A stretch of DNA of 64,000 nt from Gymnodinialimonas sp. 202GB13-11 (GTDB taxonomy: Bacteria; Pseudomonadota; Alphaproteobacteria; Rhodobacterales; Rhodobacteraceae). The stretch lies in the NCBI RefSeq assembly GCF_040932485.1, contig NZ_JBFRBH010000001.1, positions 62,001 through 126,000 of the forward strand, read 5' to 3'. The notes under the pieces are model-generated. The model was not told the origin of the DNA. It searched no databases and saw nothing but the letters and a program-made list of their open reading frames with translations. Shown here piece by piece: positions 9,529 to 39,025 of the stretch (position 1 is the stretch's first letter; each line of letters starts with the position of its first letter). The position numbers and the translations under genes were made by a program.

Positions 9529-9530
9529 GG

Positions 9531-10814
9531 TCAGGATCTCTCTGATAGGCTGACGGCTGATCCGCCACCGCCGTGATCGCCGGAGCGGATCACATGGGCA
9601 GCGGTACTTACGCCGTGATGGATGGATTGCTGCTGTTTCATGCGACGGGCCCAAGCGGGCGGGCCAGCGGTCGCGGTGGATGCGCGGGTATGCGCGGCAT
9701 GGCTGCCGCCGGTGGCAGCGTAGGCGGGGCGCGCGCCAGATTGGGCGTTCTCTGCAATCGAGCGTTGCAGGGGGCTCGTGGCGGCCGCAACTCCGGCTTT
9801 GCCGATTGCGGCAATGCCTCCCGCAGCCTTTCCGGCCATTGTGGATCGCGATGCTGACCCGAGCTGGTAGGCCGTTGACACTCCACCGGCCATCGCGCTT
9901 GCGCCACGGACGCTAGCACCGGCCGCTCCCAGAGCCATGCGTCCGGCGGCGGCACCACCGAGGGCCAGACCGCCCGCGGCCACAGCGGTCCCGACGGCGG
10001 TGCCAGCGCCAAGTTGCGGTCCGCCCGAGACGATCCCGTTGGCGATGCCCGGTCCGAAGATGCCTAACGCCAAAAGCGCCAAGGCACCCAGAACGACCGA
10101 CATGGCGTCTTCGATAGTAGGCTCCCCGGCAAAGCCGGAGGTGAAGTGCGCAAAGATGGTTGAGCCGATACCAACGATAACGGCGAGGACGAGAACCTTC
10201 ACGCCTGACGAGATGACGAGGCCGAGGACGCGTTCCGCCATGAAGGCCGTCTTGTTAAACAAGCCGAAGGGGACGAGGATGAAACCTGCGAGGGTAGCGA
10301 GTTTGAATTCGATCAGCGTGACGAAGAGCTGGATCGCGAGAATGAAGAAAGACAGCAAGACCACGAGCCAGGCAAAAAACAGGATCGTGATCTGCAGGAA
10401 GTTCTCGAAAAACGACACGTAGCCCATGAGGTCGGAGATCGATGCGAGGATCGGACGACCAGCGTCCATACCGACCTGCGCGATGCGTCCCGGTTGCAGC
10501 AACTCGTCGGCGCTAATCGTCCCGCCGGTGGCCACCAGCCCGAGGCCTGCGAAGCTGTCGAAGACGGTCCGCGCGAGCGTGTTCCAGTTGCCGATCAGGT
10601 AGGCGAAGACGCCTACGAACAAGGTCTTCTTCACTAGTCGGGCGATGATGTCATCGTCGGCACCCCACGCCCAGAACAGCGCCGCGAGTGTTATGTCGAT
10701 GACGATAAGGGTGGTCGCCAGAAAAGCGACATCGCCGCCCAAAAGGCCGAAGCCGGAATCGATGTAGGAAGCGAAGACCTCGAGAAATTGATCAATGACA
10801 CCGACGCCGCCCAT
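9531..10814 (-). CDS. trbL: P-type conjugative transfer protein TrbL (VirB6-like)
   Basis: 427 aa polytopic inner-membrane channel component. The first ~270 residues hold several membrane segments and a conserved loop region (LVTLIEFKLATLAGFILVPFGLF). The C-terminus is a Gly/Ala-rich low-complexity tail ending in a basic Gln/His stretch, as is usual for TrbL. It lies between the TrbK-like gene and trbF with gaps of 2-4 bp. Confidence 0.94.
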   Translation of the reverse strand: MGGVGVIDQFLEVFASYIDSGFGLLGGDVAFLATTLIVIDITLAALFWAWGADDDIIARLVKKTLFVGVFAYLIGNWNTLARTVFDSFAGLGLVATGGTISADELLQPGRIAQVGMDAGRPILASISDLMGYVSFFENFLQITILFFAWLVVLLSFFILAIQLFVTLIEFKLATLAGFILVPFGLFNKTAFMAERVLGLVISSGVKVLVLAVIVGIGSTIFAHFTSGFAGEPTIEDAMSVVLGALALLALGIFGPGIANGIVSGGPQLGAGTAVGTAVAAGGLALGGAAAGRMALGAAGASVRGASAMAGGVSTAYQLGSASRSTMAGKAAGGIAAIGKAGVAAATSPLQRSIAENAQSGARPAYAATGGSHAAHTRASTATAGPPAWARRMKQQQSIHHGVSTAAHVIRSGDHGGGGSAVSLSERS

Positions 10815-11878: not shown

Positions 11879-14342
11879 CCGTCTCCTTTGGGGTTGGGTT
11901 TGGTTCATGTTCGGCGGAAGAGGCGGCTGGGGAATCGAGCAGGTCAATGGCCCAGTCCAGACCGCGATGGTGCAGCCAGGCTTTTGCGAACCCGTGTCGT
12001 CCATGTTTCGCGAGAAGGTCGCTGATCGCGGCCTGATCGGTTTTCGAAGAGGCTGCCGTGAAGGCCAGTGCGACGTCGCCGAGACCAAGCGAGAAGAGCC
12101 GGTTCCCGCGTCGGGACTGGCAATAGTAATCACGTTTCGGGAAAGCCCGCGCGACGATCTCGATCTGGCGATCGTTCAGCCCAAAACGGCGATAGGTGTC
12201 GGCGATCTGTGGTTCGAAGGCGCGTCCGTTGGGCAGGAAGATGCGGGTGGGGCAGCTTTCGATGATTGCGGGGGCAATCGGTGATGCATCGATGTCGGCC
12301 AGGGATTGGGTTGCGAAAACGACAGACGCATTCTTCTTGCGAAGGGTCTTGAGCCATTCTCGCAGTTGGCCGCCAAAACTGGCATCGTCCAGCGCGAGCC
12401 AGCCTTCGTCGATGATGAGCAGTGTGGGCCGCCCGTCGAGGCGGTCGCCAATGCGATGGAAGAGATAGGAGAGGACAGTGGGCGCCGCTGCAGCTCCGAC
12501 CAGCCCCTCGATCTCGAAGGCCTGAATAGGTGCCGCGCCTAGGTCCTCAATCTCGGCGTCGAGCAGCCGCCCATGGGGCCCGCCGAGGCAATAGGGCCTC
12601 AGGGCCTGTTTCAGATCGTTTGATTGCAGCAGGACAGCGAGGCCAGTGAAGGTGCGCTCCCCGATCGGGGCTGAAGCGAGCGAGGTCAGCGCGGCCCAGA
12701 GATGCTCCTTTACTTCCGGCGTGATTGCGATGCCTTCGCGAGCGAGGATCGCGCCGATCCAGTCCGCGGCCCAGGCCCTCTCTGCGGTCTCATCGACGCG
12801 CGAGAGTGGCTGGAGATTGACGGCCCCGTCATCGCTGTCAGAGAACACTGCGCCCAGATCATGCCAATCCCCGCCCATCGCGATTGTGGCGCAGCGAATG
12901 GAGCCGCCGAAATCGAAGGCGAAGACCTGTGCATCCGGATAGCGGCGGAACTGCAGCGCCATGAGAGCAAGCAGCACCGATTTGCCTGCGCCGGTCGGCC
13001 CGACAATCAGTGTGTGCCCGACATCGCCCACATGGGTTGAGAAGCGGAACGGCGTCGATCCGTCCGTGTCGGCGTAGAAGAGCGGTGGGCCGTCGAGATG
13101 GTCGGTGCGCTCGGGTCCCGCCCAGACCGCCGAGACCGGGATCACGTGTGCGAGGTTCAGCGTGGAGACAGGCGGTTGGCGGACGTTGGCATAGAGGTGA
13201 CCCGGCAGGGATCCAAGCCATGCCTCAAGCGCGTTGAGCGTTTCCGGAATGCAGGTAAAATCGCGACCCTGCACGATTTTCTCGACGGCCTTGAGTTTCG
13301 CCTCTGCGGTGCGCGGATCCTCATCCCAAACCGTGATCGTGGCCGTAACATAGGCGGCGCCCGAGATATCGGCACCTAATTCCTGCAGCGCCTCGTCGGC
13401 GTCCGCAGCCTTGTTGGCTGCATCGCTGTCCAGCAGCGTCGAGGCCTCGTTGGTCATGACCTCCTTCAGGATCGCGGCGATGGATTTGCGTTTGGCGAAC
13501 CATTGGCGGCGGATGCGGGTGAAGATTTTCGTGGCGTCGGGTTTGTCGAGGCAGATCGCCCGTGTGCACCAGCGATACTCCAGTGGCTGGCTGTTCAACT
13601 CGTCGAGCAGGCCAGGCCATGTCGCACTTGGGAGGCCAATGATGGTGAGCGTTCTCAGGTATTGGGAGCCGAGGCGCGGGGTCAGACCGCCGACAAGGGG
13701 TTCGTCCGCGAGCAAAGCGTCCAGATGCATCGGGGTGTCCGGGACACGCACCCGCTGCCTCCGGGTCGAAATCGTCGAGTGGAAGTAAGTCAGCGTTTCC
13801 TCGTCCGAGAGCCATGCGACCTCCGGCATGAAGCCATCAAGAAGATCGAGTAGACGATCTGTTCGGAGGACGAAGGCTTTAACCTGCTCGAGGAGATCGG
13901 CACCTCTGTCAGGCGCGTTCTCGAAAAGCCAACCGCCAACACGGCTGGCCTCTTCGGAAGGCGGCATCCAAACAAACGTCAGGAAATAAGCGTTTTCAAA
14001 ATGCGTTCCCGCCTCTTCGAATTGCGCGCGACGTTCCGCGTCCACGAGGGCCGAGACGGGGTCGGGAAAGGTCGAGGCAGGGTAGTCTCGCGCCGGAATC
14101 CGTTGCGCTTCGACAAAGAGGGCCCACCCTGAGCCAAGCCGACGCAGCGTGCTGTTGAGCCGGGCCGATATGGCGACCAGCTCGGCCGGTGTGGCGGAAT
14201 CGAGATCGGGGCCCCGAAACCGGGCGCTGCGTTGGAGGCTGCCATCCTTGTTGAGCACGACCCCTTGGGCGACGAGCGCGGCCCACGGCAGGAAATCAGC
14301 CAGAAGGGATGATTTGGAGCGATATTCGGCGAGGCGCATCAT
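11859..14342 (-). CDS. trbE: Conjugal transfer ATPase TrbE (VirB4-like)
   Basis: 827 aa cytoplasmic ATPase that powers pilus assembly and substrate transfer. ATG 14342 begins MMRLAEYRSKSSLLADFLPW. Walker A VGPTGAGKS is near residue 445 and Walker B LLIIDEGWLALDD near 645, followed by the conserved KNASVVFATQSL. The open frame upstream of 14342 overlaps trbD and is not used. The length is normal for TrbE. Confidence 0.97.
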   Translation of the reverse strand: MMRLAEYRSKSSLLADFLPWAALVAQGVVLNKDGSLQRSARFRGPDLDSATPAELVAISARLNSTLRRLGSGWALFVEAQRIPARDYPASTFPDPVSALVDAERRAQFEEAGTHFENAYFLTFVWMPPSEEASRVGGWLFENAPDRGADLLEQVKAFVLRTDRLLDLLDGFMPEVAWLSDEETLTYFHSTISTRRQRVRVPDTPMHLDALLADEPLVGGLTPRLGSQYLRTLTIIGLPSATWPGLLDELNSQPLEYRWCTRAICLDKPDATKIFTRIRRQWFAKRKSIAAILKEVMTNEASTLLDSDAANKAADADEALQELGADISGAAYVTATITVWDEDPRTAEAKLKAVEKIVQGRDFTCIPETLNALEAWLGSLPGHLYANVRQPPVSTLNLAHVIPVSAVWAGPERTDHLDGPPLFYADTDGSTPFRFSTHVGDVGHTLIVGPTGAGKSVLLALMALQFRRYPDAQVFAFDFGGSIRCATIAMGGDWHDLGAVFSDSDDGAVNLQPLSRVDETAERAWAADWIGAILAREGIAITPEVKEHLWAALTSLASAPIGERTFTGLAVLLQSNDLKQALRPYCLGGPHGRLLDAEIEDLGAAPIQAFEIEGLVGAAAAPTVLSYLFHRIGDRLDGRPTLLIIDEGWLALDDASFGGQLREWLKTLRKKNASVVFATQSLADIDASPIAPAIIESCPTRIFLPNGRAFEPQIADTYRRFGLNDRQIEIVARAFPKRDYYCQSRRGNRLFSLGLGDVALAFTAASSKTDQAAISDLLAKHGRHGFAKAWLHHRGLDWAIDLLDSPAASSAEHEPNPTPKETDDDLQT

Positions 14343-20632: not shown

Positions 20633-20902
20633 GAAAACGGCAGAGTATTGGATCGCCGAATGTGTGAATATTCGAGGCCGGACAAAAACTTTTACCAGCA
20701 GGTCAGCCTAAAGCGACGGTTCGGGAGATCACGGTTAAGCCGCCGCTTAAGCTCGCAAAAAAGTATCTTTGCTGTGAATACTCAACAGCAGATTTCTTTC
20801 AGAACACTCTACCAATGATGAGCCCTAATCAAGGTAGCGCTGCGCTAAACTACCTTGCCAATTTTTCACACTCTTTTGGCTTTTTCTTTTCGAGAAGATA
20901 TT

Positions 20903-20920
20903 ATTGACTCTTGGGTCAAT
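20903..20920. promoter_or_regulatory. Probable operator of the adjacent TetR gene
   Basis: Inverted repeat ATTGAC-N6-GTCAAT about 40 bp upstream of the TetR start at 20961. It is AT-rich and well placed for autoregulation. It differs from the TAATGACAT operators near 22.8 and 28.9 kb, so this regulator probably has a separate target. Confidence 0.5.
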
Positions 20921-20960
20921 AAAGAGTTAGGAGTTCGTATTACTGTTCCATGGAGCACCC

Positions 20961-21566
20961 ATGCCAACTGTCAGAAAACGCAGAAAAGACCACAGGCCGG
21001 CTGAGATTACGCGTGCTGCGATAGAAGCCTTCGCCGACAAGGGATACATCGGCACCAAAGTGACGGATGTGGCCCATCGCGCTAACGTTTCAAAAGGGAC
21101 AGTCTATCATTACTTCGGCGACAAAAATGCCCTATTCCGAGCGGCATTTCACACCTGTTTCGTCGACAGCCTCCAACCTGTCACGCTGCCTCCCATTGAC
21201 GGTAGTGCCAACATGACATCCTTGCTGGAATACCTTCTGCGGGAGGCCTTTCTTGGCCTGCAAGGGTCTGAAGCTTCTAGCCTGCTCAAGGTAATCCTGA
21301 TTGAGGGTGATCGGTTTCCTGACCTTGTCTTGCAATGTCAGAGCGATCTTCTCAACAAGATCGAAGCCCCTCTCATGCAACTGATAGATGCGGGCATTTT
21401 GTCGGGCGAGTTTGGACCAGGTGCCTATCGTGACATGCCGTCGATCATGCTGCTGCCGGGGGTTATGTTGTCCTTGCTCGGTCATTTCTTCTCGGACGAC
21501 CGAGACATCGATGTCTTCGACGCGTTCCTGGATTTGATCATAAACGGCCTCTTAAAACGACCCTAG
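20961..21566 (+). CDS. TetR/AcrR-family transcriptional regulator
   Basis: 201 aa. The N-terminal helix-turn-helix contains TKVTDVAHRANVSKGTVYHYF, and the all-helical ligand domain includes LLKVILIEGDRFPDLV. It is related to the TetR protein at 28945, which shares the RRKD-RP-EI N-terminus and the LLK-I-IAEG motif. Three same-strand genes follow it closely. It probably controls the small secreted protein and the desaturase genes. Confidence 0.92.
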   Translation: MPTVRKRRKDHRPAEITRAAIEAFADKGYIGTKVTDVAHRANVSKGTVYHYFGDKNALFRAAFHTCFVDSLQPVTLPPIDGSANMTSLLEYLLREAFLGLQGSEASSLLKVILIEGDRFPDLVLQCQSDLLNKIEAPLMQLIDAGILSGEFGPGAYRDMPSIMLLPGVMLSLLGHFFSDDRDIDVFDAFLDLIINGLLKRP

Positions 21567-21596
21567 TAGCTGGGTCCCGAAAACGGAGCACTTGAA

Positions 21597-21932
21597 ATGA
21601 CTGTTTTGAAACACCGCCCCAGGGCGCTGGTCCTTTGCTGCCTCATGGCTACGACGACCGCGATCGCCGAAAGCCCTGCTAGTCAGCTTGTCACTGGTGA
21701 ATTCTGGAGCGCAACGCTCAATCGAGGTCAGCAGGTCCGGTTAAAGTTCAATGCGGACGGCACAATTGATGTTCGCGCGTTGTTTGCGCCGCGCCTGACT
21801 TGGACTGCGACCGATGATGGACTTTGCCTGACGGGCGGGCCGGGTGGGACAATGTGTGCAACGCTCTTTCCAACCGAGACCGGTTTTATTGGTCTGGATG
21901 GCGAAACCCTGATCTTACGACTCGATAGATAG
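21597..21932 (+). CDS. Small secreted protein of unknown function
   Basis: 111 aa with a signal peptide cut near AIAES and a short beta-rich domain. It carries the pattern W-x3-DDGLCLTGGPGG-x-MCATL, then DGETLILRL. The protein at 25387-25740 shows the same pattern (GDALCVT, GRECLTI, DGGVLTLVR), so the two form a small family with a likely Cys pair. The stop lies 9 bp before the desaturase gene, with a shared ribosome binding site region. The function is not known. Confidence 0.75.
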   Translation: MTVLKHRPRALVLCCLMATTTAIAESPASQLVTGEFWSATLNRGQQVRLKFNADGTIDVRALFAPRLTWTATDDGLCLTGGPGGTMCATLFPTETGFIGLDGETLILRLDR

Positions 21933-21941
21933 GAGCCCAAC

Positions 21942-22742
21942 ATGTTGGACGTCCTCGCGCTTTTCGCGCAAAGTTACATAACCGCCATCATGACGACGGG
22001 GCTTGCATGTGTCCTTGCGTACTTACTGTTTTGGAAGGCCCTGTCTCAAAGGCTGGTTCATTGGCGCATCCAATTGAACCGGCGAGCCGACAGCAAGCAA
22101 ATCAAACGAGAGCTGAAGAATTCGCTCTTTGTCTTCGCGGTTTCAGCATGCTTCAGCGTTTTTGTAATATCATTGGGCAGCCTTGGTCTAACCAACATAT
22201 ATTTCAATTTGAACGACTATCCGATTTGGGTCGGCTTGCTCGGGTTCCCGCTGCTGCTTATCATAGATGATACATGGTTTTACTGGGTTCATCGCGCTTT
22301 GCACCATCCCAAAATCTACCGCCATGTTCACCATGAGCATCACCGCAGCCTCGATGTAAATCCGATCACATCAATCTCGTTTCACTGGATTGAGCCGCTT
22401 TTGTTGACGGCTTGGGTCCTGCCAGCCGCGATGTTTCTTCCGCTTTGGGCACCCGCACTTCTTCTTCTTCAGTTGTACGGGTTGTTAGACAATATCAAAT
22501 CACATCTGGGGTATGAGATATTCCCGGCGTGGTGGAACAAATCGCCATTGGGGCTTCTCACGTCAAGCACATACCACAATCTTCACCATACGAAGTTCAA
22601 AGGCAACTACGGTGTCCACTTCCGCTTCTGGGACAGGCTGATGGGCACAGAGCTCAAGGTTTACGATGAAGTTTTCGATGAAATCCAGAGCCGCAAGGCA
22701 GCGGGCGGCATGACCCAAGCAAAAAAGGATCAAATCACGTAA
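21942..22742 (+). CDS. Sterol desaturase / fatty acid hydroxylase family membrane protein
   Basis: 266 aa integral membrane di-iron enzyme family. Several membrane segments occupy the first ~100 residues. The histidine clusters HRALHHPKIYRHVHHEHHRS and YHNLHHTKFKGNYG provide the metal ligands. Family members hydroxylate or desaturate sterols, fatty acids or other lipids. AGGAG precedes the ATG. Its position inside a lipid-type export module suggests it modifies the lipid to be moved. Confidence 0.9.
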   Translation: MLDVLALFAQSYITAIMTTGLACVLAYLLFWKALSQRLVHWRIQLNRRADSKQIKRELKNSLFVFAVSACFSVFVISLGSLGLTNIYFNLNDYPIWVGLLGFPLLLIIDDTWFYWVHRALHHPKIYRHVHHEHHRSLDVNPITSISFHWIEPLLLTAWVLPAAMFLPLWAPALLLLQLYGLLDNIKSHLGYEIFPAWWNKSPLGLLTSSTYHNLHHTKFKGNYGVHFRFWDRLMGTELKVYDEVFDEIQSRKAAGGMTQAKKDQIT

Positions 22743-22788
22743 AGCCGTTGAGCCGTCGAGCGATTGCTTTCTCCTTCCCGCAGCTCTT

Positions 22789-22838
22789 GCGCTCCCCCCG
22801 CACTAATGACATTAATGTCATTAGTGCGGGGGGAGCGC
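22789..22838. repeat. Perfect 50-bp palindrome enclosing a TetR-type operator
   Basis: 25 bases followed by their exact reverse complement. The outer arms are GC-rich (GCGCTCCCCCCGCAC) and the inner part is the TAATGACAT/ATGTCATTA operator. It lies 46 bp after the desaturase stop and 33 bp before the outer-membrane factor start. It could act as operator, transcript hairpin or both. No T-run follows, so it is not a standard terminator. Confidence 0.9.
22804..22823. promoter_or_regulatory. Operator TAATGACAT-TA-ATGTCATTA before the outer-membrane factor
   Basis: 9-bp arms with a 2-bp spacer. The arms are identical to those of the site at 28896-28915 in front of the membrane fusion protein and the second TetR gene. 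It is therefore the likely binding site of the TetR at 28945, linking the separately transcribed outer-membrane factor to the exporter. Confidence 0.75.
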
Positions 22839-22870
22839 CAATTGATTGGCTGGAACTGGAGACATGAACT

Positions 22871-24250
22871 GTGAACTACAAACCGATCAATCTGGTCCTA
22901 CTAGCAGGTTTTCTTGTGTCCGGATGTGCTGTTGTTGGCCCCAACTATGAACCTCCCACAATAGATCTTGCGGCGGAATTCGTCGAAGGATCGTCCGCCT
23001 CCGCTGATCAAACTGCCCACCTTGAATGGTGGTTGCAATTCAACGACCCGTTGCTTACCGAGCTTGTTGAGCGAGGCTTGCAGCAAAACCTCGACATTCA
23101 GGCTGCGATCGAACGCATAAACGCGGCCGCGGCACAGCTTGGTTCGACAGGATTAGCCTCTCAGGCATCCGGCTCACTCACCTCTCAAACGCAACGCACC
23201 GGAGTCGAAGGATTTGAAGCCGACACGGCGTCCTCAACATCGGTCAATTCCAGCTTTGTAATTGATCTATTTGGAGGTATTGCGCGTGAGCAGGAACAGG
23301 CGCTGGCCAATGCAGATGCTGCGCACCTTGATGTGGGGGCGGCGCAACTTGCGTATTTGTCCAGCATGGTCGATCACTATATTTCGGCGCGCTACTATCA
23401 GGAAGCGTTGGAACTAACGCGTCAGAATGTCGCCAGCCAAGCACGCACCCTGTCTATTGTGGAAAGCCAACGAGAACTTGGTGTTACAACTGATCTGAAC
23501 GTGGCCCAAGCGCGTGCGCAACTAGACCAGGCCCGCGCGTCGATCCCGGGTCTAGAGATTGGGTTCCATACTTCGGTTTACCGAATCGCTACCCTTCTCG
23601 CAGAGCCGGCTGCGCCCCTTCTCGGCTCCATGCAATCCGGTGCGCCGCAACCCCACAGCCGGTCAAATACGGGCGCTGGAATTCCCGCAAATCTTCTGCG
23701 CAACCGACCGGATTTGTGGGCCGCTGAGCGGCGGTATGCCTCTGCATTGGCCGCTGTTGGAGTGGCGGAAGCCGCGCTCTACCCTTCGCTTACACTTTCA
23801 GGTTCGGTGACTATTGCGTCGCCAGACAGTTGGTCCTTTGGGCCGTCTATTCAATTGCCCATACTGGGACGTGGGGCTCTGGCGTCTCAACGTGACGTCC
23901 AGATTTCGAACGCGCAACAGGCCGAGATTGAATGGCGAACCCTCGTTCTCGAAGCTGTCGAGGACGTTCAAATCGCTCAAGCAAGCTATCTGCGCCGCCA
24001 GCGCGAGGTGAGCAGCCTTCGCAACGCTGTCGCGTCCAATCGAGTCGTTCTAGACTTGACGCGATCCAGCTTTGAAAGTGGCGATCAGGACGTTCTCGAT
24101 TTGCTCGACACGGAGCGAAACTACGCTGATAGCCGTTTATCACTCGCTGCTGCGGTGCGTGACCTGAGCTCAGCCTGGGTGACGTTGCAGATCGCGTCCG
24201 GTAGGGGCTGGAATACACGTAGACCTGTTTCGGCCGAACCTTCCAATTGA
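22871..24250 (+). CDS. Outer-membrane efflux lipoprotein (TolC/NodT family)
   Basis: 459 aa outer-membrane factor for a tripartite exporter. The start is GTG 22871; the ATG at 22864 is in another frame and soon stops. The N-terminal lipobox LVSGC (Cys19) precedes AVVGPNYEPP, the NodT-family opening. Two OEP repeats follow, with long coiled-coil helices (residues about 60-230 and 270-450). The ABC exporter genes on the opposite strand converge on it and share its operator sequence. Confidence 0.94.
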   Translation: MNYKPINLVLLAGFLVSGCAVVGPNYEPPTIDLAAEFVEGSSASADQTAHLEWWLQFNDPLLTELVERGLQQNLDIQAAIERINAAAAQLGSTGLASQASGSLTSQTQRTGVEGFEADTASSTSVNSSFVIDLFGGIAREQEQALANADAAHLDVGAAQLAYLSSMVDHYISARYYQEALELTRQNVASQARTLSIVESQRELGVTTDLNVAQARAQLDQARASIPGLEIGFHTSVYRIATLLAEPAAPLLGSMQSGAPQPHSRSNTGAGIPANLLRNRPDLWAAERRYASALAAVGVAEAALYPSLTLSGSVTIASPDSWSFGPSIQLPILGRGALASQRDVQISNAQQAEIEWRTLVLEAVEDVQIAQASYLRRQREVSSLRNAVASNRVVLDLTRSSFESGDQDVLDLLDTERNYADSRLSLAAAVRDLSSAWVTLQIASGRGWNTRRPVSAEPSN

Positions 24251-24255
24251 CTGGC

Positions 24256-25380
24256 CTATATCTGCCACAGTGCCTCACTGACCGCTCTGTCATACCCATG
24301 CCTGAACAAAGCCTGCATATAGCTTTGAGAGAACCGCTCGGTTGGATCAAAAATTATGCCGGAGTCCGGATCGACGGCAGTGTAGGACAACGTCAGCCGA
24401 CTTGTCCTTGCAAAGAGTTGCGCAGTTGCAAGGCCGTTTGCAGCACTTGATCTGACCATCGTGGTCAGCGCCTGTTGTGAGATGCCAAGCACAGTGCGTG
24501 GGACAGCTTGCGGCCGTGGATCAATAGTGTTGTTGATTACGATATACAAATGACCATTGCCGTCGGTAATCGTAGACCGGTCAAATGCAGCCTCTGGAAC
24601 CGCCAGAAACTGCATATGCAGTCCGCCATCCACATGGGTTTCCGAAACCGTTTGACCGCCATGCTGATACCGGAGCGTAACCGGGGGAAAGAGACCTGGC
24701 AATGCGGACGATGCCGCCATGATTGCGCGAAACAACGTGGTATTTCCTGCCACAGCGATCCGGCCCATATTCCAGACAATCGCTCTGCCCTGATCCAGAT
24801 TTGATGTAACAATGAAAAGCCGGGCGCCAGAGCGATGGCGTTCGGCAATAGCTGAAAGAAGCTGGGGTGTCACGTAGATGTCGAGCAACGCCAGAAATCC
24901 ATCGGTGTTGAATAGTGAATTGCCAAGCAATCCACGTAGCCCGCGCAGAGTAAGCACGTCGTCGCCGTCGAATTGAGTGAATACCTCCTCCAGATCACGG
25001 TCATATGCAGAACCAGCGAAGGCAAATGGCGCGATCAACGCCCCGGCCGATATCCCGGTAACAAGGTCAAATTCGGGCCGTGAGCCGAATTGTGTCCAAC
25101 CCACCAGTGCGCCCGCGCCGAAAGCGCCATCCTCGCCACCGCTCGACAACGCCAGAATTTTCGGACGGGCCGACATGTGCGCGACGGATAGATGATGTCG
25201 CCAAACGTCCGCCTCGGCATCCGCACGAAATCTGATCTGTCCAAGCGCAGTGCTGTTCGGAGGATCAATTAGCAGAAGATCGTCCGGCACAGCTCCGGAG
25301 CATCCGGTTACGCAAAGGCATGCGGTAACTCCCGTCAAGAACCGTCGACGGTTCGAGCTGTCGGCGGCAGAATATACCAC
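24256..25380 (-). CDS. Patatin-like phospholipase, Tat-type lipoprotein
   Basis: 374 aa. GTG 25380 opens a signal with twin arginines (SNRRRFLTG, residues 9-17) and a lipobox ending at Cys27 (CVTGC), so it should be an exported lipoprotein. The patatin fold shows the Gly-rich oxyanion loop SSGGEDGAFGAG (79-90), nucleophile elbow GISAG (Ser111) and the dyad Asp in HVDGGL. Lipid acyl hydrolase activity is expected. It is the last gene of the exporter operon. Confidence 0.9.
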   Translation of the reverse strand: MVYSAADSSNRRRFLTGVTACLCVTGCSGAVPDDLLLIDPPNSTALGQIRFRADAEADVWRHHLSVAHMSARPKILALSSGGEDGAFGAGALVGWTQFGSRPEFDLVTGISAGALIAPFAFAGSAYDRDLEEVFTQFDGDDVLTLRGLRGLLGNSLFNTDGFLALLDIYVTPQLLSAIAERHRSGARLFIVTSNLDQGRAIVWNMGRIAVAGNTTLFRAIMAASSALPGLFPPVTLRYQHGGQTVSETHVDGGLHMQFLAVPEAAFDRSTITDGNGHLYIVINNTIDPRPQAVPRTVLGISQQALTTMVRSSAANGLATAQLFARTSRLTLSYTAVDPDSGIIFDPTERFSQSYMQALFRHGYDRAVSEALWQI

Positions 25381-25386
25381 GGCGAC

Positions 25387-25740
25387 TTACCTCACCAAAG
25401 TCAGCACGCCCCCGTCGGAAGTCCGATATCTTCCACCTCCGATGCTCTCGATCGTAAGACATTCGCGTCCTGCTCGTGGGCCGGATAGCATAGTGACGCA
25501 CAAGGCATCGCCCTCGGTTTCCCAGCTACCTTCTCCATTCATCAAGGCTGACTCGAAGCGAACAAGTCCGGACGCCATGTACGTCACTCGGACATTCATT
25601 CCCATCCTGCGGATTTGAAACGTTTCATTGCTGAAGGCAGCGTGAATTTCGTCACCCGAAAGGGTGCCTGCTTGTGCAGACAGATTGCAGCCCAATACAA
25701 TACAGACCGCCAATGTGGTTGATTTGATGGCATCTTTCAT
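25387..25740 (-). CDS. Small secreted protein, related to the one at 21597
   Basis: 117 aa from ATG 25740, with GGAG about 8 bp before it; the signal peptide ends near AQAG. The mature part is beta-rich with SWETEGDALCVT, a second Cys in GRECL and a DGGVLTLV ending, matching the 111-aa protein at 21597. It lies one base after the ABC ATPase stop and 6 bp before the patatin gene, firmly inside the operon. It may be a periplasmic accessory protein; the function is unknown. Confidence 0.78.
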   Translation of the reverse strand: MKDAIKSTTLAVCIVLGCNLSAQAGTLSGDEIHAAFSNETFQIRRMGMNVRVTYMASGLVRFESALMNGEGSWETEGDALCVTMLSGPRAGRECLTIESIGGGRYRTSDGGVLTLVR

Positions 25741-25741
25741 C

Positions 25742-26473
25742 TCAAGTCTCCTGTTGTTTGACAACACGCAGCGGCTCGGGGGTTGGTGTGACGTCTTTGA
25801 TCACCCGCCCTTCTTCGAGAGTGATGATCCGATCTGCGAGTTCAAGAATACGGTTGTCGTGGGTTACCATTACGGTCGTCGTGCCCCGACTCGTTCCAAG
25901 CGCTTTCAGCATCTCGACGACAGTCTTCCCGGAGTCCTTGTCGAGGGCAGCTGTTGGCTCATCCGCAAAGATAACCTCCGGGTTGGAAACGAGCGCTCTC
26001 GCGACCGCTACACGTTGCTTCTGGCCGCCTGATAGGGATCCCGGCAAATAATCCAGACGATCCGCAAGGCCAAGTGTTCCTAAAAGGTGATGGGCCGCTG
26101 CCTTTTGCTTTTTCGGATCGCCCTTGCCGTGGACTTGCAACCCCATCAGAACATTCTGTGTCGCTGTTAGACTTTCGTGCAAGTTGTGCGCCTGAAAAAT
26201 GAAGCCCAACCTGCGCCGTGCAGCGACCTGTTGAGCATTGCTCGCTCCGTTCAATTCGGTGTCCAACAAGCGAACACTGCCTTCTTGGACGTCCCTGAGA
26301 CACCCCATCAGTGTCAGCACGGTTGTCTTTCCAGATCCTGACGGCCCCATCAGGATCGTTAGCTTGCCGCGCTCGATCTCAAGACTCACATCCCAGATCG
26401 CCTGTTTGCGCGCCTCACCTGTTCCAAAAAAGTGATTGAGGCCTTGAACGCTGATCGCAATACTCTCGGCCAT
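25742..26473 (-). CDS. ABC exporter ATP-binding protein, DevA/MacB-like
   Basis: 243 aa ATPase with Walker A GPSGSGKT (43-50), signature LSGGQKQRVAVARAL and Walker B VIFADEPTAALD. The opening ISVQGLNHFFGTGEARKQ and HNLHESLTATQNV closely follow the DevA family, whose cyanobacterial members energise glycolipid export. ATG 26473 overlaps the permease stop by one base. It works with the FtsX-like permease and the membrane fusion protein. Confidence 0.94.
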   Translation of the reverse strand: MAESIAISVQGLNHFFGTGEARKQAIWDVSLEIERGKLTILMGPSGSGKTTVLTLMGCLRDVQEGSVRLLDTELNGASNAQQVAARRRLGFIFQAHNLHESLTATQNVLMGLQVHGKGDPKKQKAAAHHLLGTLGLADRLDYLPGSLSGGQKQRVAVARALVSNPEVIFADEPTAALDKDSGKTVVEMLKALGTSRGTTTVMVTHDNRILELADRIITLEEGRVIKDVTPTPEPLRVVKQQET

Positions 26474-27648
26474 TAGAACAAATCCGCTGGATCAGCGCTG
26501 GTTAAGCGCCGCGTCGCGATTGCGCCCGAAACAGAACAGGCAAACAGCGTTCCGACGAAAACGAGAATGATACGCTCTGCGTTCATTTCGACCGGGAGAC
26601 CAGTCGCGGCACTCATACCTAGATACAATCCAAGCGAAACAACTAGGCCAGGTATGAACCCACAGACCGCAAGGATCGTCGACTCTTCAAAGACGATACC
26701 AAGGAAGAACCGCGGTCCGTAGCCCATAGCTTTGAAGGTTGCATATTCACGCAGATGGTTTGCCACATCGGTTGAAAGGACCTGATAGACGATCACGATG
26801 CCGACGATCACACCGATCACAACCCCAAACCCAAAGATTACGCCGGTTGGGCGCTCCGTTGTCTGATAAGCCAAGTCGGCCGCGGCTGCGGCAGCAAGTG
26901 TCTGGACCTTCACAGCATCTTCGGGAAGCAGCGCTTGCAATCGCATAACGACGGTAGTCACGTCAGCCCCCTCGACAACATGGATCAGAATATGGTTAGG
27001 CGCCCCGCTGCTCCGGCTGCCGAAAAAGCGAAGAAAGGTTTGGTCGGACACAAACATTGTTCCGTCTGCTGTGAAGCCGCCCCCGGCTTGAATAGTGCCG
27101 ACAGCGTTCAAAGTTCGCCCGTTGACTTCGAATGAGAATGAAGTGCCACCTGCCAACTGCTCAAATACTTCGGGCGAAATACCGCGCGTTGCCGTGTCAA
27201 TAAGAGCGGCGTTTTCCTCGCGCAATAAGTCCAGTTGGCTTGCAACCGATGCTGTCACAAACTGCGCATCTTCGACATTCACGCCAAAGGTCTGCAGAGT
27301 AGCGGTATCACCGTTTGCCAGTTGCAACGACATATTACCAATGTAGAGCGGCGTTGCCTCGGCCACGTCTGGATCGCCTAACGCCTGAAACATCCGTACT
27401 CTAGCCACATTGCTGCCATCGGCGAGAGTGTGGGCATCTTGGGCCGATATGATGATATCCGCTTCGAAGAAGTCATAAGGCGCAACCGTCGATGCGTTCA
27501 GGGCGCCCAGAATGCCAAGTTGAAGAAAAACGAGAAGATTCGCGAAAGATACACCAGCCAGCGCGGCAAAAAACCGCCCTCTGCTGTGCGTGAGTTGCAA
27601 CCATCCTATCGGCAGGCGCCCCAACACCCGGGTCAGAAAAGGCGTCAT
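26473..27648 (-). CDS. ABC exporter permease, DevC type (FtsX/MacB fold)
   Basis: 391 aa. One N-terminal membrane helix, a large periplasmic domain (about residues 50-260) and three C-terminal helices give the four-segment MacB/FtsX layout. The cytoplasmic stretch REYATFKAMGYGPRFFLGIV and the following GFIPG are DevC hallmarks. It overlaps the fusion-protein gene upstream by four bases. It probably acts as a mechanotransmission pump for a substrate taken from the periplasm or outer leaflet. Confidence 0.93.
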   Translation of the reverse strand: MTPFLTRVLGRLPIGWLQLTHSRGRFFAALAGVSFANLLVFLQLGILGALNASTVAPYDFFEADIIISAQDAHTLADGSNVARVRMFQALGDPDVAEATPLYIGNMSLQLANGDTATLQTFGVNVEDAQFVTASVASQLDLLREENAALIDTATRGISPEVFEQLAGGTSFSFEVNGRTLNAVGTIQAGGGFTADGTMFVSDQTFLRFFGSRSSGAPNHILIHVVEGADVTTVVMRLQALLPEDAVKVQTLAAAAAADLAYQTTERPTGVIFGFGVVIGVIVGIVIVYQVLSTDVANHLREYATFKAMGYGPRFFLGIVFEESTILAVCGFIPGLVVSLGLYLGMSAATGLPVEMNAERIILVFVGTLFACSVSGAIATRRLTSADPADLF

Positions 27649-28874
27649 TGATAATCCTCGCCTTCAATGCGGACGATAACTTCCAGGTTGGTGAAACCGG
27701 ATGCTAATGCAGCCGATTCAGGATCTAGTTCGATGACGACGTTCACGACACGAGCGTCGGTATTGGCGGCAGGGTCGTCCGACGTAATAGACTGTCTATT
27801 GATTTCCAGGCCGATAGAGACAACGGTTCCATTTAATGTCTGTTCTATTGCTTGTGTGGTAATCGTCACGGGATCGCCCAAAGCGACGCGTCGAACCATC
27901 GTTTGGTAGACTTCAGCCTCGACCTTCATTTGGCTCGTATCGCCCATATCGAGGATACCTTCAGATCCTGGTTGCTCGCCTTCGCGACTATGAATTTCAA
28001 AAATTGTTCCTGAGGTCGGTGCCGCAACGATGGACTGCTCAAGGTTGCGTTCCGCCCGTTCTACAGAGATACGCGCTGCTTCTAGGTTTGCTTGCGCGAC
28101 CGCAATATCAGCTTGCACCTCGCCTTCTGACACGCGGTAGCGGGAAAGCGTTGCGAGATCGCGCTGTACGTCGAGCGCGGCCTCTTCGGCGCGCGCGACC
28201 GCACTGTCAAAATCTGCACGCGCTGCGATCCCGCGGTCGAGCAATGATTGTGAACGGACGCGCTCTGAAGTCGCCTCAATTAAAGTGGCTTGCGATCGTT
28301 CATACGCTGCTTCCGCTTCCGCCCGACTGGCATTTATCGTGATGATTGTCTGTTCAAGCGTCGCTTCAGAAATCGCAAGATCAGCTAGCGATGACGCAAG
28401 GGCGCTTTCAAGATCGGTCCGATTGTCCAAGACTGCCAATATGTCGCCCGCCTCAACCTGATCTCCGACGTTGACTCTTAACTCTGCGATCCTTGCGTCA
28501 CCGGCGCCGTAGGGGGTCGCGATGCTGATAACGTCGTCCATTGGGAGAATACGTCCTAACGCGACAACATCACCTTCGCTGACAACGGCGACCTGTTGCT
28601 GCGACATGACTTGTTCAGTTGCGACGGCGATAGGGGTATCCGTGCCCGCGCCGGGTTCAAGTCCAGTCACTCCGAAAAAGGCTTGCAGGCCAGGAGGCTG
28701 GAAATAGAGCCCTGCGACCGCTCCAGTGAACGAAGAGACCAGAATGATGAGCGGAAGCCGTAGGCGCGACGACCGAGCCGCGAAACTCGACTTCACAGTA
28801 TCGCCTGACGACGACGACGCGCCGTTGTCTTCCAATGGCAAAGCAGGGGCTTGGGCTTGAGCACTCTCGGGCAT
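27645..28874 (-). CDS. Membrane fusion protein, HlyD/DevB family
   Basis: 409 aa adaptor linking the DevC-like permease to the outer-membrane factor. ATG 28874 has GGAGAG 4 bp upstream; the open frame further upstream runs through the operator and promoter. The layout is a cytoplasmic N-tail, one membrane helix near residues 38-56, a lipoyl half-motif (GVGDQ-EAGDILAVL), a long coiled coil rich in Ala/Glu (about 160-290) and a beta-barrel end. First gene of a five-gene operon. Confidence 0.92.
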   Translation of the reverse strand: MPESAQAQAPALPLEDNGASSSSGDTVKSSFAARSSRLRLPLIILVSSFTGAVAGLYFQPPGLQAFFGVTGLEPGAGTDTPIAVATEQVMSQQQVAVVSEGDVVALGRILPMDDVISIATPYGAGDARIAELRVNVGDQVEAGDILAVLDNRTDLESALASSLADLAISEATLEQTIITINASRAEAEAAYERSQATLIEATSERVRSQSLLDRGIAARADFDSAVARAEEAALDVQRDLATLSRYRVSEGEVQADIAVAQANLEAARISVERAERNLEQSIVAAPTSGTIFEIHSREGEQPGSEGILDMGDTSQMKVEAEVYQTMVRRVALGDPVTITTQAIEQTLNGTVVSIGLEINRQSITSDDPAANTDARVVNVVIELDPESAALASGFTNLEVIVRIEGEDYQ

Positions 28875-28895
28875 AAACTCTCCATAGATCACTAC

Positions 28896-28915
28896 TAATG
28901 ACATAGATGTCATTA
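28896..28915. promoter_or_regulatory. TetR operator TAATGACAT-AG-ATGTCATTA between exporter operon and TetR gene
   Basis: Perfect 9-bp arms with a 2-bp spacer in the 70-bp gap between two divergent starts (28874 and 28945). It can therefore repress both the exporter operon and the regulator itself. The same arms occur at 22804-22823 before the outer-membrane factor. Confidence 0.8.
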
Positions 28916-28944
28916 ACGTCGAAACAATCAAGTGGGAATCGCTG

Positions 28945-29562
28945 ATGGCACCTCGAAAAAGGCAACGACGAAAGGACGCCCGACCAGAGGAGATTGTCAG
29001 CGCCGCATTGGAACTATTTGGAAATAAAGGATATTCGAACACTACACTGAGCACCATCGCCGATGCGGCCGATATATCCCGCACAACCATTTATCTCTAC
29101 TTCGAAGACAAGGAGGCAATCCTTCGCCAAGCATTTGAGGATCGCGTTGCCCCGATTTTTCAGGATGGACATGCGCAAGTCGCACAAGTTGAAATGCCGT
29201 TCGAGCAGCTCTTTAGGATGGTCATTGGCAGGATGTATGACCGGTTGACCGACAAGACGACGCTGATCCTACTCAAGATTATCATCGCGGAAGGGCACCA
29301 AATACCAGATCTCGTGCGGTTCCATCATGAGAACATATTGAGCATCGCCGAGCGTCTCGTCGAAGGCCTTCTCAAAACCGGCATTGCTGAAGGAGCCGTG
29401 CGCCCTTCGATTGCTGACATGGATCCAAAGCTCTTGATTGCACCGATCATTGTCGCCGCAATGTGGCGTCTGACCTTTGAACACCTTTCCCCGATCGACA
29501 TCGACGAATACATCGCGGGGCATCTAGACATCCTGATGAAGGGTATTCTGGTGAAAAACTAG
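28945..29562 (+). CDS. TetR/AcrR-family repressor of the exporter module
   Basis: 205 aa. HTH at about residues 17-60 (TTLSTIADAADISRTTIYLYF) and a helical ligand domain. It is divergent from the membrane fusion protein gene, with a palindromic operator between them, the standard arrangement for a self-regulated exporter repressor. It is related to the TetR at 20961. The ligand is probably the exported compound or a precursor; this is inferred from arrangement only. Confidence 0.92.
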   Translation: MAPRKRQRRKDARPEEIVSAALELFGNKGYSNTTLSTIADAADISRTTIYLYFEDKEAILRQAFEDRVAPIFQDGHAQVAQVEMPFEQLFRMVIGRMYDRLTDKTTLILLKIIIAEGHQIPDLVRFHHENILSIAERLVEGLLKTGIAEGAVRPSIADMDPKLLIAPIIVAAMWRLTFEHLSPIDIDEYIAGHLDILMKGILVKN

Positions 29563-35112: not shown

Positions 35113-36768
35113 ATGGCTGACATCAACGGAACCAATGGCAACGACAGCATCAATGGCACTGTCGATGACGACATCATCAACGGGAATGGCGGGGATGATA
35201 TGATCATCGCCAGCTCCGGCAATGACGTCATTGACGGCGGCGCTTCACGCAATGACGTGTTGGATTATTCTGGTTCAACCACTGGAGTGACGGTAACGAT
35301 ACCAAGCAGTGGTCAGACGGGTTACGTAGTTGGCGGCGACACAGGCTCAGACAGTTTCACAAACGTGGAAATCCTCGAGTTATCGGATCAAGATGACGTA
35401 TTCAAGTCTCTTTCGGGCGTCACGGTTTACCGTCCTTACGTCAACCTAGGTGCCGGTGATGACGAGGTAATTCTGAATAACAATGCCGGGGACTACGACG
35501 GTGGGGACGGTATAGATACGCTGATCAGCCAAGCTGAACTGAACCAGGTCATTGATCTTGAGTCTGGCACAATAGCCAGTTATTTCGGCGCAGGATCGAT
35601 CTCGAACATCGAAAATGTTGTGGCATCAAATGGTGATGTCGAGATCATCGGTTCCTCTGTGGACAATGTTCTCCAAGGTGTCGGCCCAAATAACTTCACT
35701 ATAGGTGGCGGCGACGGCAACGACACGCTCGAAACTCAGACCGGGCGCGATCATTTGGATGGCGGAGACGGGGATGATGTTCTGTCAGCCAACAGTGGAG
35801 ATGACACCCTGATTGGTGGCAGTGGAAATGACTGGCTGCAAGGCGGTGCTGGTCAAGATACCATGTCAGGAGGTCTTGGAGATGATACGTTTTATTTCGT
35901 CGGAGGATCTGGGAACGATGTCATCCAAGATTTCGATCTGGGCGATCATGATGGCGACGGATTTACCAACGATCAACTGGATGTGTCCGGTCTGCTGGAC
36001 GATCAAGGAGATCCCGTCGACGTCTGGGATGTGTCCGTTTCCGGCGCAAGCTCAGATCCTGATGCCGACGCGATCCTCACCTTCACCAATGGCGAGAGCA
36101 TTCGTCTCGTCGGTGTCCACGTTGACGATGTGGACACAGTTCAAGAGCTGAACTCAATCGGCATCCCTTGCTATCTCCGCGGCACCTTCATTCTTACGGA
36201 GAGGGGAGAGGTTGCTGTTGAAGACCTGAAAATCGGTGACCGAGTTGTCGTCGAGAACGGCAACAGTGCTCCAATTCTCTGGCTGGAGTCCACGAAGCTG
36301 ACGGACGATCAATTGGCAGAAAACTCCGATCTCAGGCCCATCAGGATCAAACCGATGGCATTGGGAAACACCAGACCTCTTTTGGTGTCCTCGCAGCATT
36401 GCATCGTTTTGGACTGCAACGGAGAACGTCACTTCGCACGCGCGAAGCATATCGCGCAGCAAAGCTCAATGGCGCATGTTGCATTTGGGAGGTCAGAAGT
36501 TGAGTACTTCCACCTGCTTCTTCCTGAGCACTCGATGATTTGGGCAAATGGGGTCTTGTCCGAGAGCTTTTACCCGGGCCCTTGCGCTCTGCAGATGATA
36601 TCGGCCCAATCGAAACTGAGCTTGCTGGCAGCAACTGGCGCTCAATCGGAACGCGCATTGCAGGAGAGCTACGGTGAACGAGCTTTGCCAGTCATGAAGC
36701 GCGCGCAGATCGGCGCTCATGTGGGCGATAGTTATCAAGCCCACCAACCCCACCAGAGAGTCGCTTGA
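35113..36768 (+). CDS. RTX calcium-binding repeat protein with Hint domain
   Basis: 551 aa, no N-terminal signal, as expected for type I secretion. Ca-binding GGxGxDxL repeats occur at about residues 5-40 (NGNGGDDMI) and 195-260 (GGDGDDVL, GGSGNDWLQGGAGQD, GGLGDDTF). A Hint_2 domain follows from Cys in IPCYLRGTF (about 353) through VEDLKIGDRV to SSQHCIVL. Hint domains can autoprocess. This architecture is common in Rhodobacterales. A second Hint protein lies at 37976 with an AraC regulator between. Confidence 0.92.
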   Translation: MADINGTNGNDSINGTVDDDIINGNGGDDMIIASSGNDVIDGGASRNDVLDYSGSTTGVTVTIPSSGQTGYVVGGDTGSDSFTNVEILELSDQDDVFKSLSGVTVYRPYVNLGAGDDEVILNNNAGDYDGGDGIDTLISQAELNQVIDLESGTIASYFGAGSISNIENVVASNGDVEIIGSSVDNVLQGVGPNNFTIGGGDGNDTLETQTGRDHLDGGDGDDVLSANSGDDTLIGGSGNDWLQGGAGQDTMSGGLGDDTFYFVGGSGNDVIQDFDLGDHDGDGFTNDQLDVSGLLDDQGDPVDVWDVSVSGASSDPDADAILTFTNGESIRLVGVHVDDVDTVQELNSIGIPCYLRGTFILTERGEVAVEDLKIGDRVVVENGNSAPILWLESTKLTDDQLAENSDLRPIRIKPMALGNTRPLLVSSQHCIVLDCNGERHFARAKHIAQQSSMAHVAFGRSEVEYFHLLLPEHSMIWANGVLSESFYPGPCALQMISAQSKLSLLAATGAQSERALQESYGERALPVMKRAQIGAHVGDSYQAHQPHQRVA

Positions 36769-37789: not shown

Positions 37790-37975
37790 CATCTTTTGTC
37801 TGGCCCAGTGGTGCGCGGCATAGAGGTCGTGACAAGTCCTTCTTGTGTGCCCTTTCTCATAGATGTCATTGACGTCGGCTTCACAGCTTTTTCATTTTTT
37901 CGAACCTATGTTGTCAAAATACAGTGGGATTGTGAGGCAACGGCGGATTTCAGCTGCCGGTTCGCGAGGCAAAGA

Positions 37976-39025
37976 ATGACCAATCTGATCGTAAACGGGT
38001 CCTTTGAGGATACCACCGGACTCACGGAGACTGCCTACGGCTTCACAGGGCAACCGAATGGTTGGACTGACGCAAACGGCAGTGATTTCGAGATCGTGCG
38101 GTCCGGTCATGTCGGGCAAAACGCATCAGATGGTCAGTTCTGGCTGGATTCCGATCAGGTCGGTATGAACATGGACATCTCTCAGGTTGTTGCCGGTGTC
38201 CAAGATGGTCAAAGTTATGATCTCTCATATGATCTTTCTGAGTGGCGGGACAACGGGTCCAATCAGCTGAATGTTTACTGGAATAACACGCTTATTCACA
38301 CGTATTCCGGAGGATCGGGCGATCAGAATTCCTTTGATAGCTTCGAATTCGTCGTTGTCGGCGAGCCCGGTGACAACGTGATCAGGTTCGAGGAGGTAGG
38401 CCCCGTAGACAGTGCTGGTATCGTAATAGACAACGTATCTCTGGTTGCGTCATCCGTTCCTTGCTTCTTGAAAGGTACATTGATCAACACGCCAAGCGGT
38501 CAGCGTTTAGTCGAAGATTTAAGGCCGGGTGATATGGTTTGTACGGCCGACAATGGGTTTCAGTCGATCCAATGGGTCGGTGCGAAGGTACTGAGCAGCC
38601 AGGTTTTGAGGGTTGCAAGCCACTTATTGCCAATAAGAGTCCGAAAAGGTGCAGTAGGAAATGAAGCTGACTTGTTCGTGTCACCTCAACACCGATTGCT
38701 AATGCCAACTTCGAGTTATGATGGCTCAGGAAGGGAGGTCTTGGTAAGCGCTAAGAACCTCTACAAGCAGTTCGGCGGACCGTTCCGCGTAGCGAGAGGG
38801 CGGCGAGAAGTGTCTTACCACCATATTCTTCTCGATAATCACGAAATTATTTGGGCTAATGGTGCAAGAGTTGAAACGATGCTTTTGGGGGAGTGGACAA
38901 TGCGTAGTCTTTTTCACTTTGATATACGGCTAAACGGTCTCCTTAAACTACAAAAAAAACCGATGCATCCTTGTCGGCAGATAGTAAAGCGCCTCCCAAT
39001 CTCATCATTTAGCGTAGCTGCCTAA
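37976..39025 (+). CDS. Hint-domain protein with N-terminal carbohydrate-binding-like domain
   Basis: 349 aa from ATG 37976 (GAGG a few bases upstream); the frame extends further upstream but without a start signal. The N-terminal ~155 residues (NLIVNGSFEDT, PNGWTDANG, IVIDNVSLVA) look like a jelly-roll DUF642/CBM type domain. The Hint_2 domain runs from Cys in SVPCFLKGTL through VEDLRPGDMV and SPQHRLL to EIIWANG. No RTX repeats and no signal are seen. Confidence 0.87.
   Translation: MTNLIVNGSFEDTTGLTETAYGFTGQPNGWTDANGSDFEIVRSGHVGQNASDGQFWLDSDQVGMNMDISQVVAGVQDGQSYDLSYDLSEWRDNGSNQLNVYWNNTLIHTYSGGSGDQNSFDSFEFVVVGEPGDNVIRFEEVGPVDSAGIVIDNVSLVASSVPCFLKGTLINTPSGQRLVEDLRPGDMVCTADNGFQSIQWVGAKVLSSQVLRVASHLLPIRVRKGAVGNEADLFVSPQHRLLMPTSSYDGSGREVLVSAKNLYKQFGGPFRVARGRREVSYHHILLDNHEIIWANGARVETMLLGEWTMRSLFHFDIRLNGLLKLQKKPMHPCRQIVKRLPISSFSVAA

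Follow-up and report, generated by a model that had tools for sequence, protein, structure and literature searches.

A candidate inducible DevBCA-type exporter locus with small secreted proteins and a patatin in Gymnodinialimonas sp. 202GB13-11

What is moved by a DevBCA-type pump whose operon also encodes a small secreted protein and a patatin? The question is raised by a ten-gene locus in a 64,000-nucleotide stretch of Gymnodinialimonas sp. 202GB13-11 (Rhodobacteraceae; NZ_JBFRBH010000001.1, positions 62,001 to 126,000), referred to here as the window. An initial annotation of this DNA described a five-gene minus-strand operon that converges on plus-strand genes for a TetR regulator, a small secreted protein (SSP), an enzyme of the fatty-acid hydroxylase/sterol desaturase superfamily (FAH) and a NodT-type outer-membrane factor, and proposed that the module makes, trims and exports a modified lipid. 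All the genes it named are present at their coordinates (Table 1) and family models agree with their identification; a second TetR gene, tetR2, had gone unmentioned, although the annotated stretch ends exactly where this gene does. We favor a different function as the probable one: an inducible tripartite pump of the MacB/DevBCA type that would export an amphiphilic or stress compound, SSP and patatin serving as its accessories. A lipid would be only one possible substrate of such a pump.

The case is read from the sequence, which shows the set of genes, a unique pair of operators, the conservation of that operator with TetR2, and the reappearance of SSP and patatin alongside the pump. By these signs the genes of the locus form a module, because nodT is linked to the devBCA-SSP2-patatin operon by a pair of operator copies found nowhere else in the genome and because SSP and patatin genes recur beside DevBCA in other bacteria. 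The 4.0-Mb genome has just two copies of the palindrome TAATGACATnnATGTCATTA, one in the 70-bp gap between devB and tetR2, which contains TAATGACATAGATGTCATTA, and one before nodT. A genome scan with the candidate TetR2 operator returned these two sites without mismatch, no others at up to two mismatches and one more at three, with 0 in the reversed control; the pair did not occur in 100 shuffles of the window. A TetR gene plus an operator in a divergent gap is a common layout of inducible efflux pumps. The locus follows this design, with a palindrome in the promoter gap common to tetR2 and devB, binding and repression both being predictions. Because nodT and devB have in common a candidate operator that occurs nowhere else in the genome, nodT appears to belong with TetR2 and the pump despite its position behind the FAH gene, and one repressor probably switches both the pump operon and its channel.

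The operator copy before nodT is enclosed by a perfect 50-bp palindrome that far exceeds the 20-bp operator within. As RNA, the segment 22780-22870 (coordinates are window positions unless a locus label, L, or a genome label, G, is given) is predicted to fold into a very stable hairpin (-53.7 kcal/mol, z -7.8) and has no T run. The 50-bp palindrome may insulate nodT from FAH transcripts. A scan for promoters and terminators gave no excess over shuffles. The genes tetR1, SSP1 and FAH are a second, related unit with its own candidate operator. TetR1 and TetR2 are 32% identical over their full length, and TGAC-N6-GTCA is common to the two operator candidates. At two mismatches the TetR1 site is found at six places in the genome, including both TetR2 sites, compared with 1 in the reversed control. 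A TetR1-like gene also neighbors an SSP gene in locus L210, where it is preceded by a similar palindrome, CTATTGAC-N6-GTCAATAG. Elsewhere in the Gymnodinialimonas genome, G000:C1:985051-985070 carries TTGACCATTTGGTCAA, which presumably resembles a RutR site.

The TetR2 arrangement is retained in relatives. GTDB genomes were scanned with a DevC alignment, in one scan of the named genomes and a sample of the remaining ones; 217 relatives were found and the best 80 kept, 13 of them on stretches shorter than 12 kb. Gene calls in these relatives are simple open reading frames (ORFs), and neighbors were identified by single-sequence searches and by Pfam on chosen genes. DevB is present in 78 and DevA in 79 of the 80 stretches, and every stretch has one or the other. 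By a rule-based count, a TetR2 homologue is divergent from devB in 22 of the 78 DevB-bearing loci, and the palindrome (at least 14 of 18 letters) lies in the gap in 15 of these 22 versus 1 of the 56 other DevB loci (L127). Over-long ORFs led this rule astray at L093 and L101, the second of which does carry the palindrome. When 14 further whole genomes were scanned at up to three mismatches, the operator was found in the devB gap of 12; G271 has a single three-mismatch site outside that gap, and G171 has none, but one reversed-control match. Chance was taken to account for the single site of G271 and for the additional three-mismatch sites in G267 and in G263, where the site adjoins another TetR/HlyD pair. 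In Roseobacter sp. WL0113 and uncultured Tateyamaria (2-1260) (G268/G270), both of which have DevBCA-SSP2, a second operator precedes the gene for a small secreted proline-rich protein, and the two proteins resemble each other. Such proline-rich, cationic secreted proteins behind a TetR2-type operator are encoded at L190 (~9400-9750, minus strand) and L191 (~9010-9330, minus strand), in two genomes with DevBCA-SSP2; they contain ILKAKK or LLKAKK, and RPGPP near the end. At L127, from Tateyamaria, SSP2 (11922-12122) is interrupted by a stop codon and the palindrome is retained at a locus that has no TetR2. In Pseudovibrio sp. Ad37 devB is split into two pieces (L147:8775-10004).

Might DevBCA and TetR2 simply have been gathered with an unrelated patatin, SSPs, FAH and NodT in an acquired stretch? 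DevC (E <1e-50) was found in 21 of 248 sampled genera of the family, its own included, and in only 1 of 13 genomes of the genus, so the pump operon was probably acquired; this distribution, and the fact that the full gene set was not seen elsewhere, would suit such chance neighbors. The sharing of one genome-unique operator by nodT and devB argues against them, as do gene order and enrichment. The order DevA-SSP2-patatin is retained in Roseobacter sp. WL0113 (L135), and DevA-patatin in uncultured Tateyamaria (L094), where SSPs lie on both sides together with a two-component system. An SSP is found near DevBCA in 4 of the 80 loci (in one of them interrupted by a stop codon) where 0.035 would be expected (P 6e-8), and a patatin in 2 of 80 where 0.036 would be expected (P 6e-4), the expectations coming from a rough model of uniform placement. 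The two DevBCA-adjacent patatins are the nearest to the window patatin among those compared (57 and 58% identity), and a tree of 13 patatins groups the window patatin and the Roseobacter WL0113 one together (90/94; not starred). Of the 9 genomes among the 248 genera that match SSP strongly (own genome excluded), 3 have DevC (P 0.03); when all SSP matches are counted, DevC is present in 7 of 28 (P 0.003). A purely fortuitous assembly is thus very improbable.

The assignments in Table 1 place the pump in the DevBCA exporter family, since all three subunits exceed the curated NCBIfam cut-offs: DevA with 308.7 bits against TIGR02982 (cut-off 295.8), DevB with 209.2 bits against TIGR02971 (cut-off 129) and DevC, barely, with 290.6 bits against TIGR01185 (cut-off 290.35, a margin of 0.25 bits). 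NodT scores 283.4 bits against TIGR01845 (cut-off 210.05). The listed ORF of DevB (27645-29090) overlaps tetR2, and the likely start is the ATG at 28874, giving 409 amino acids; that of SSP2 is over-long too, and translation more likely begins after the devA stop, with the ATG at 25740 (117 amino acids). The patatin-like phospholipase has the Patatin domain, the GxSxG serine (GISAG at 109) and the DG[GA] aspartate (DGG at 251), with RRRFL at 11 followed by a lipobox-like VTGC, as seen by eye. FAH retains the three histidine clusters HRALHH, HVHHEHH and HNLHH, in keeping with the PF04116 superfamily. A search by sequence for solved structures of FAH and the patatin gave nothing useful. Elsewhere in the window, two Hint-domain proteins (35113-36768 and 37796-39025), one with RTX repeats, flank an AraC-type regulator in the part of lowest G+C (0.50-0.51).

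Table 1. Genes and candidate operators of the locus, in window positions.
Feature	Position	Strand	Remarks
TetR1 operator candidate, TATTGAC-N6-GTCAATA	20902..20921		TATTGACTCTTGGGTCAATA; sole exact match in 4.0 Mb
TetR1, TetR-family regulator	20961..21566	+	PF00440 7.1e-16
SSP1, small secreted protein, predicted small beta barrel	21597..21932	+	Signal peptide by eye
FAH, fatty-acid hydroxylase/sterol desaturase superfamily enzyme	21942..22742	+	PF04116 2.5e-26
Perfect 50-bp palindrome enclosing the operator before nodT	22789..22838		25-nt arms, 100% complementary
TetR2 operator candidate, copy 1, before nodT	22804..22823		TAATGACATTAATGTCATTA
NodT-type outer-membrane factor	22871..24250	+	TIGR01845 3.1e-84, above cut-off; lipobox-like LVSGC by eye
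Patatin-like phospholipase, probable twin-arginine lipoprotein	24256..25380	-	PF01734 5.1e-17; GISAG, DGG, RRRFL
SSP2, small secreted protein related to SSP1	25387..25740	-	Signal peptide by eye; predicted barrel
DevA, ABC ATPase	25742..26473	-	TIGR02982 above cut-off
DevC, FtsX/MacB-type permease	26473..27648	-	TIGR01185 just above cut-off; PF02687
DevB, periplasmic adaptor	27645..28874	-	TIGR02971 above cut-off
TetR2 operator candidate, copy 2, between devB and tetR2	28896..28915		TAATGACATAGATGTCATTA; kept in other genera
TetR2, divergent regulator of the DevBCA operon and, putatively, of nodT	28945..29562	+	PF00440 5.7e-16

Membership in the DevBCA family does not settle the substrate. In Anabaena, one member of the family exports heterocyst glycolipids (PMC8277102; PMC6161253) and other paralogues are drug or ethidium pumps (PMC8277102); the notion that DevBCA means lipid export was rejected on this account. 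In a lipid pathway at this locus, FAH would hydroxylate a lipid, the patatin would trim it and DevBCA-NodT would export it, as DevBCA-HgdD does with the glycolipids. The DevBCA family models, the cyanobacterial precedent, the intact motifs of patatin and FAH, and the predicted lipocalin-like fold of the SSPs are consistent with this scheme. FAH was not found to be conserved with the pump, however. A gene of its family occurs in 1 of the 80 DevC loci (L132), near the ~0.35 expected from a rough, guessed background, and the best matches to FAH elsewhere are only 40% identical in the 248 family genomes, 36% in 385 genomes of the class and 40% on plasmids; FAH was ruled out as a core part on these two grounds. 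Among the loci examined, the co-occurrence of DevC and patatin that the initial annotation had called for was found in 2 of the 80 others, and that of DevC and this FAH in this genome only. FAH also lies behind a different operator, the TetR1 site, no glycolipid synthase was found among the 20 window proteins scanned, drug efflux is known among DevBCA paralogues, and SSP and patatin also accompany an RND pump, as described next. The module proposed at the outset is thus borne out by operators and recurrence, while the drug-pump relatives, the RND association and the missing conservation of FAH speak against the making, trimming and export of a modified lipid, which we consider unlikely.

The RND association is seen on a plasmid of Hoeflea sp. 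IMCC20628 (NZ_CP011480.1), where TetR is followed by SSP, a small hypothetical protein, HlyD, an RND permease and patatin. As at the Gymnodinialimonas locus, a TetR, an SSP2-type protein, an adaptor, an inner-membrane engine and a patatin lie in one stretch; the differences are that the RND engine replaces DevCA, that there is an extra small hypothetical protein, and that no FAH-type or outer-membrane factor gene is annotated in the 24-kb stretch, whose annotation may be incomplete. A small, probably membrane-spanning protein without a Pfam match is encoded near the Hoeflea RND pump (L231:8701-9093) and another, alike by eye, directly behind DevA in L050 (2073-2504). Other loci found through their SSP gene have DevB and the end of DevC at a contig end with a histidine kinase and a response regulator (L211), a NodT-HlyD-RND set with a kinase and regulator (L212), an RND permease immediately upstream (L214), RbbA-like ABC transporters (L213 and L217, the latter also with an HlyD protein by Pfam) or, as neighbor, a thiamine pyrophosphate (TPP) enzyme (L218). 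An adaptor gene was counted in 5 of 11 SSP-anchored loci versus 0 of 16 control loci anchored on patatin or FAH (P 0.006); the rule for adaptors left uncounted L212 and L214, both of which have HlyD by Pfam. On the Sulfitobacter sp. SK012 plasmid (L232), DevBCA lies a few kb from an HlyD-RbbA-type set with an IS5 transposase between them, and RbbA-type sets also recur beside SSPs.

Since SSP and patatin stand beside DevBCA in some genomes and beside an RND pump in another, they look like accessories that change engines. A bolder form of this idea makes the SSPs a fourth part of tripartite exporters, new and independent of the engine: as secreted mini-lipocalins they would collect the substrate in the periplasm (or be the cargo) and pass it to DevBCA, RND or RbbA-like pumps, with the patatin lipoprotein as an acyl-ester-cleaving partner and, here, with two paralogous TetRs that have related operators. 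We offer this as a tentative possibility and rather doubt it as a whole.

Several observations weigh against an inducible tripartite exporter to which SSP and patatin belong as accessories. No SSP was found in 76 of the 80 DevC loci and no patatin in 78. Some SSP genes have no pump adjacent and lie beside PhaC (L215, L216), a FadL-like gene (L219) or a GntR gene (L209); of the five SSP loci counted as having an adaptor, that of L210 is not HlyD by Pfam and that of L216 is ~8 kb off. The patatin loci of the control set were without an adaptor, and a true DevC is missing from the five genomes whose stand-alone patatins are closest to the window's (47-51% identity). No convincing NodT was found near DevBCA elsewhere: among the 80 loci, 13 of them on stretches under 12 kb, a phmmer search with the window's NodT matched only 2, weakly (E 3e-4 and 5e-4) and at a distance of ~8 kb, a search that TolC-type factors would escape; and in the 14 other genomes no operator preceded any outer-membrane factor in the places inspected. 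Nor did Foldseek return a match for the SSPs at E 1e-3 or better. The Gymnodinialimonas genome encodes two OEP-family proteins, NodT and one other, from which it seems that this pump brings its own channel; relatives without one may use another factor.

By sequence, the SSPs are one family, unnamed in the libraries searched, and they are the novel part of the locus. SSP1 and SSP2 are related in a single BLASTP comparison (E 2e-4), and G55, W69, C77 and C87 (SSP1 numbering) are invariant in 16 of 16 aligned members. Pfam gave nothing convincing for 16 members, nor did NCBIfam for SSP1 and SSP2, and the best match to PDB sequences (E 0.29) was not convincing either. A third, weak relative in the same genome (G000:C1:3721257-3721538, L220; E 0.003) has no pump part beside it. 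AlphaFold2 models, made with six sequences each, predict a short helix and eight strands for SSP1 (mean predicted local distance difference test score, pLDDT, 85) and for SSP2 (mean 82, from the longer ORF), with pLDDT >90 across most of the mature part and the invariant cysteine pair in neighboring strands. The Foldseek matches are weak: for SSP2 the best is Tp0435 (E 2.2e-3, TM 0.54/0.67), and for SSP1 they are 3-methylcrotonyl-CoA carboxylase chains (E 0.021) followed by LupI-type protease inhibitors and lipocalin-like Bacteroides proteins (E 0.035-0.08). Their predicted helix and eight strands in ~90 residues liken the SSPs to Tp0435, lipocalin-like BT_0869 and LupI-type metalloprotease inhibitors, with no sequence match to any of them; we take Tp0435 to be a small eight-stranded barrel of the SSP-like kind. 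The models weakly suggest small lipocalin-like barrels, a label to be used as a lead.

Are the SSPs themselves what is exported? MacB is thought to take its substrates in the periplasm, among them the Sec-exported disulfide protein STII (PMC5985334). By analogy with MacAB-TolC, Sec would deliver SSP1 and SSP2 to the periplasm, where the disulfide would form before DevBCA-NodT expels them. That export of a Sec-delivered disulfide protein speaks for such a role, as do the small size of the SSPs, their signal peptides (by eye), the two invariant cysteines in neighboring strands of the models, the place of SSP2 within the pump operon, and the second TetR2-type operator before another small secreted, proline-rich protein in the two related genomes. 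The occurrence of SSPs beside RND pumps, RbbA-like pumps or no pump speaks against it, as does their absence from most DevC loci. To our knowledge, a folded barrel of 90 residues also exceeds the known protein cargo of MacAB, which counts further against the SSPs as cargo. We judge it improbable that they are.

The inducible exporter is preferred for the range of DevBCA relatives, which includes drug pumps, for the periplasmic uptake attributed to MacB and for the divergent-TetR design. It has the same three subunits, in the order B-C-A, as DevBCA-HgdD of Anabaena PCC 7120 and the drug paralogues Alr4280-2 and Alr3647-9. Anabaena DevBCA works with a TolC-type factor, and the Anabaena pumps seem to share one HgdD (PMC8277102); here NodT adjoins the operon and has the same operator, so that it may be the partner of DevB. 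Unlike Anabaena DevBCA, the locus has a TetR and operator, a NodT-type factor with that same operator, and SSP and patatin in the operon. An FtsX/MacB-type permease, an HlyD-type adaptor and an outer-membrane factor liken it to MacAB-TolC, from which it differs in its separate ATPase and permease genes and its other accessory genes. Literature searches on all terms together returned no paper on this combination save one apparently unrelated, although such searches are narrow and do not prove that nothing is in print.

The exporter would work as follows. TetR2 would occupy both palindrome copies and repress its own gene, the devB-devC-devA-SSP2-patatin operon and nodT. A ligand would release TetR2, and pump, channel and accessories would be produced together. 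The MacB-type engine, DevC and DevA, would work with the DevB adaptor to pick up an amphiphilic or stress compound, its most likely source being the periplasm or the inner membrane's outer leaflet, and would expel it by way of NodT. SSP2 (and SSP1), as periplasmic barrels, might carry, buffer or sense the compound, and the patatin lipoprotein might cleave acyl esters at the membrane. TetR1, SSP1 and FAH would form a related second switch alongside.

If this reading is true, a single repressor in some alphaproteobacteria switches both a pump of the DevBCA type and a separate channel in the outer membrane, and a family of small barrels, unnamed in the libraries searched, accompanies pumps with different engines. 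How greasy substrates get to the adaptor is a question to which a periplasmic carrier serving tripartite pumps would be relevant; should the SSPs be cargo instead, protein export of the MacB type would be extended. The regulon also offers a handle, in that the inducer of TetR2 may lead to the class of substrate that the pump exports.

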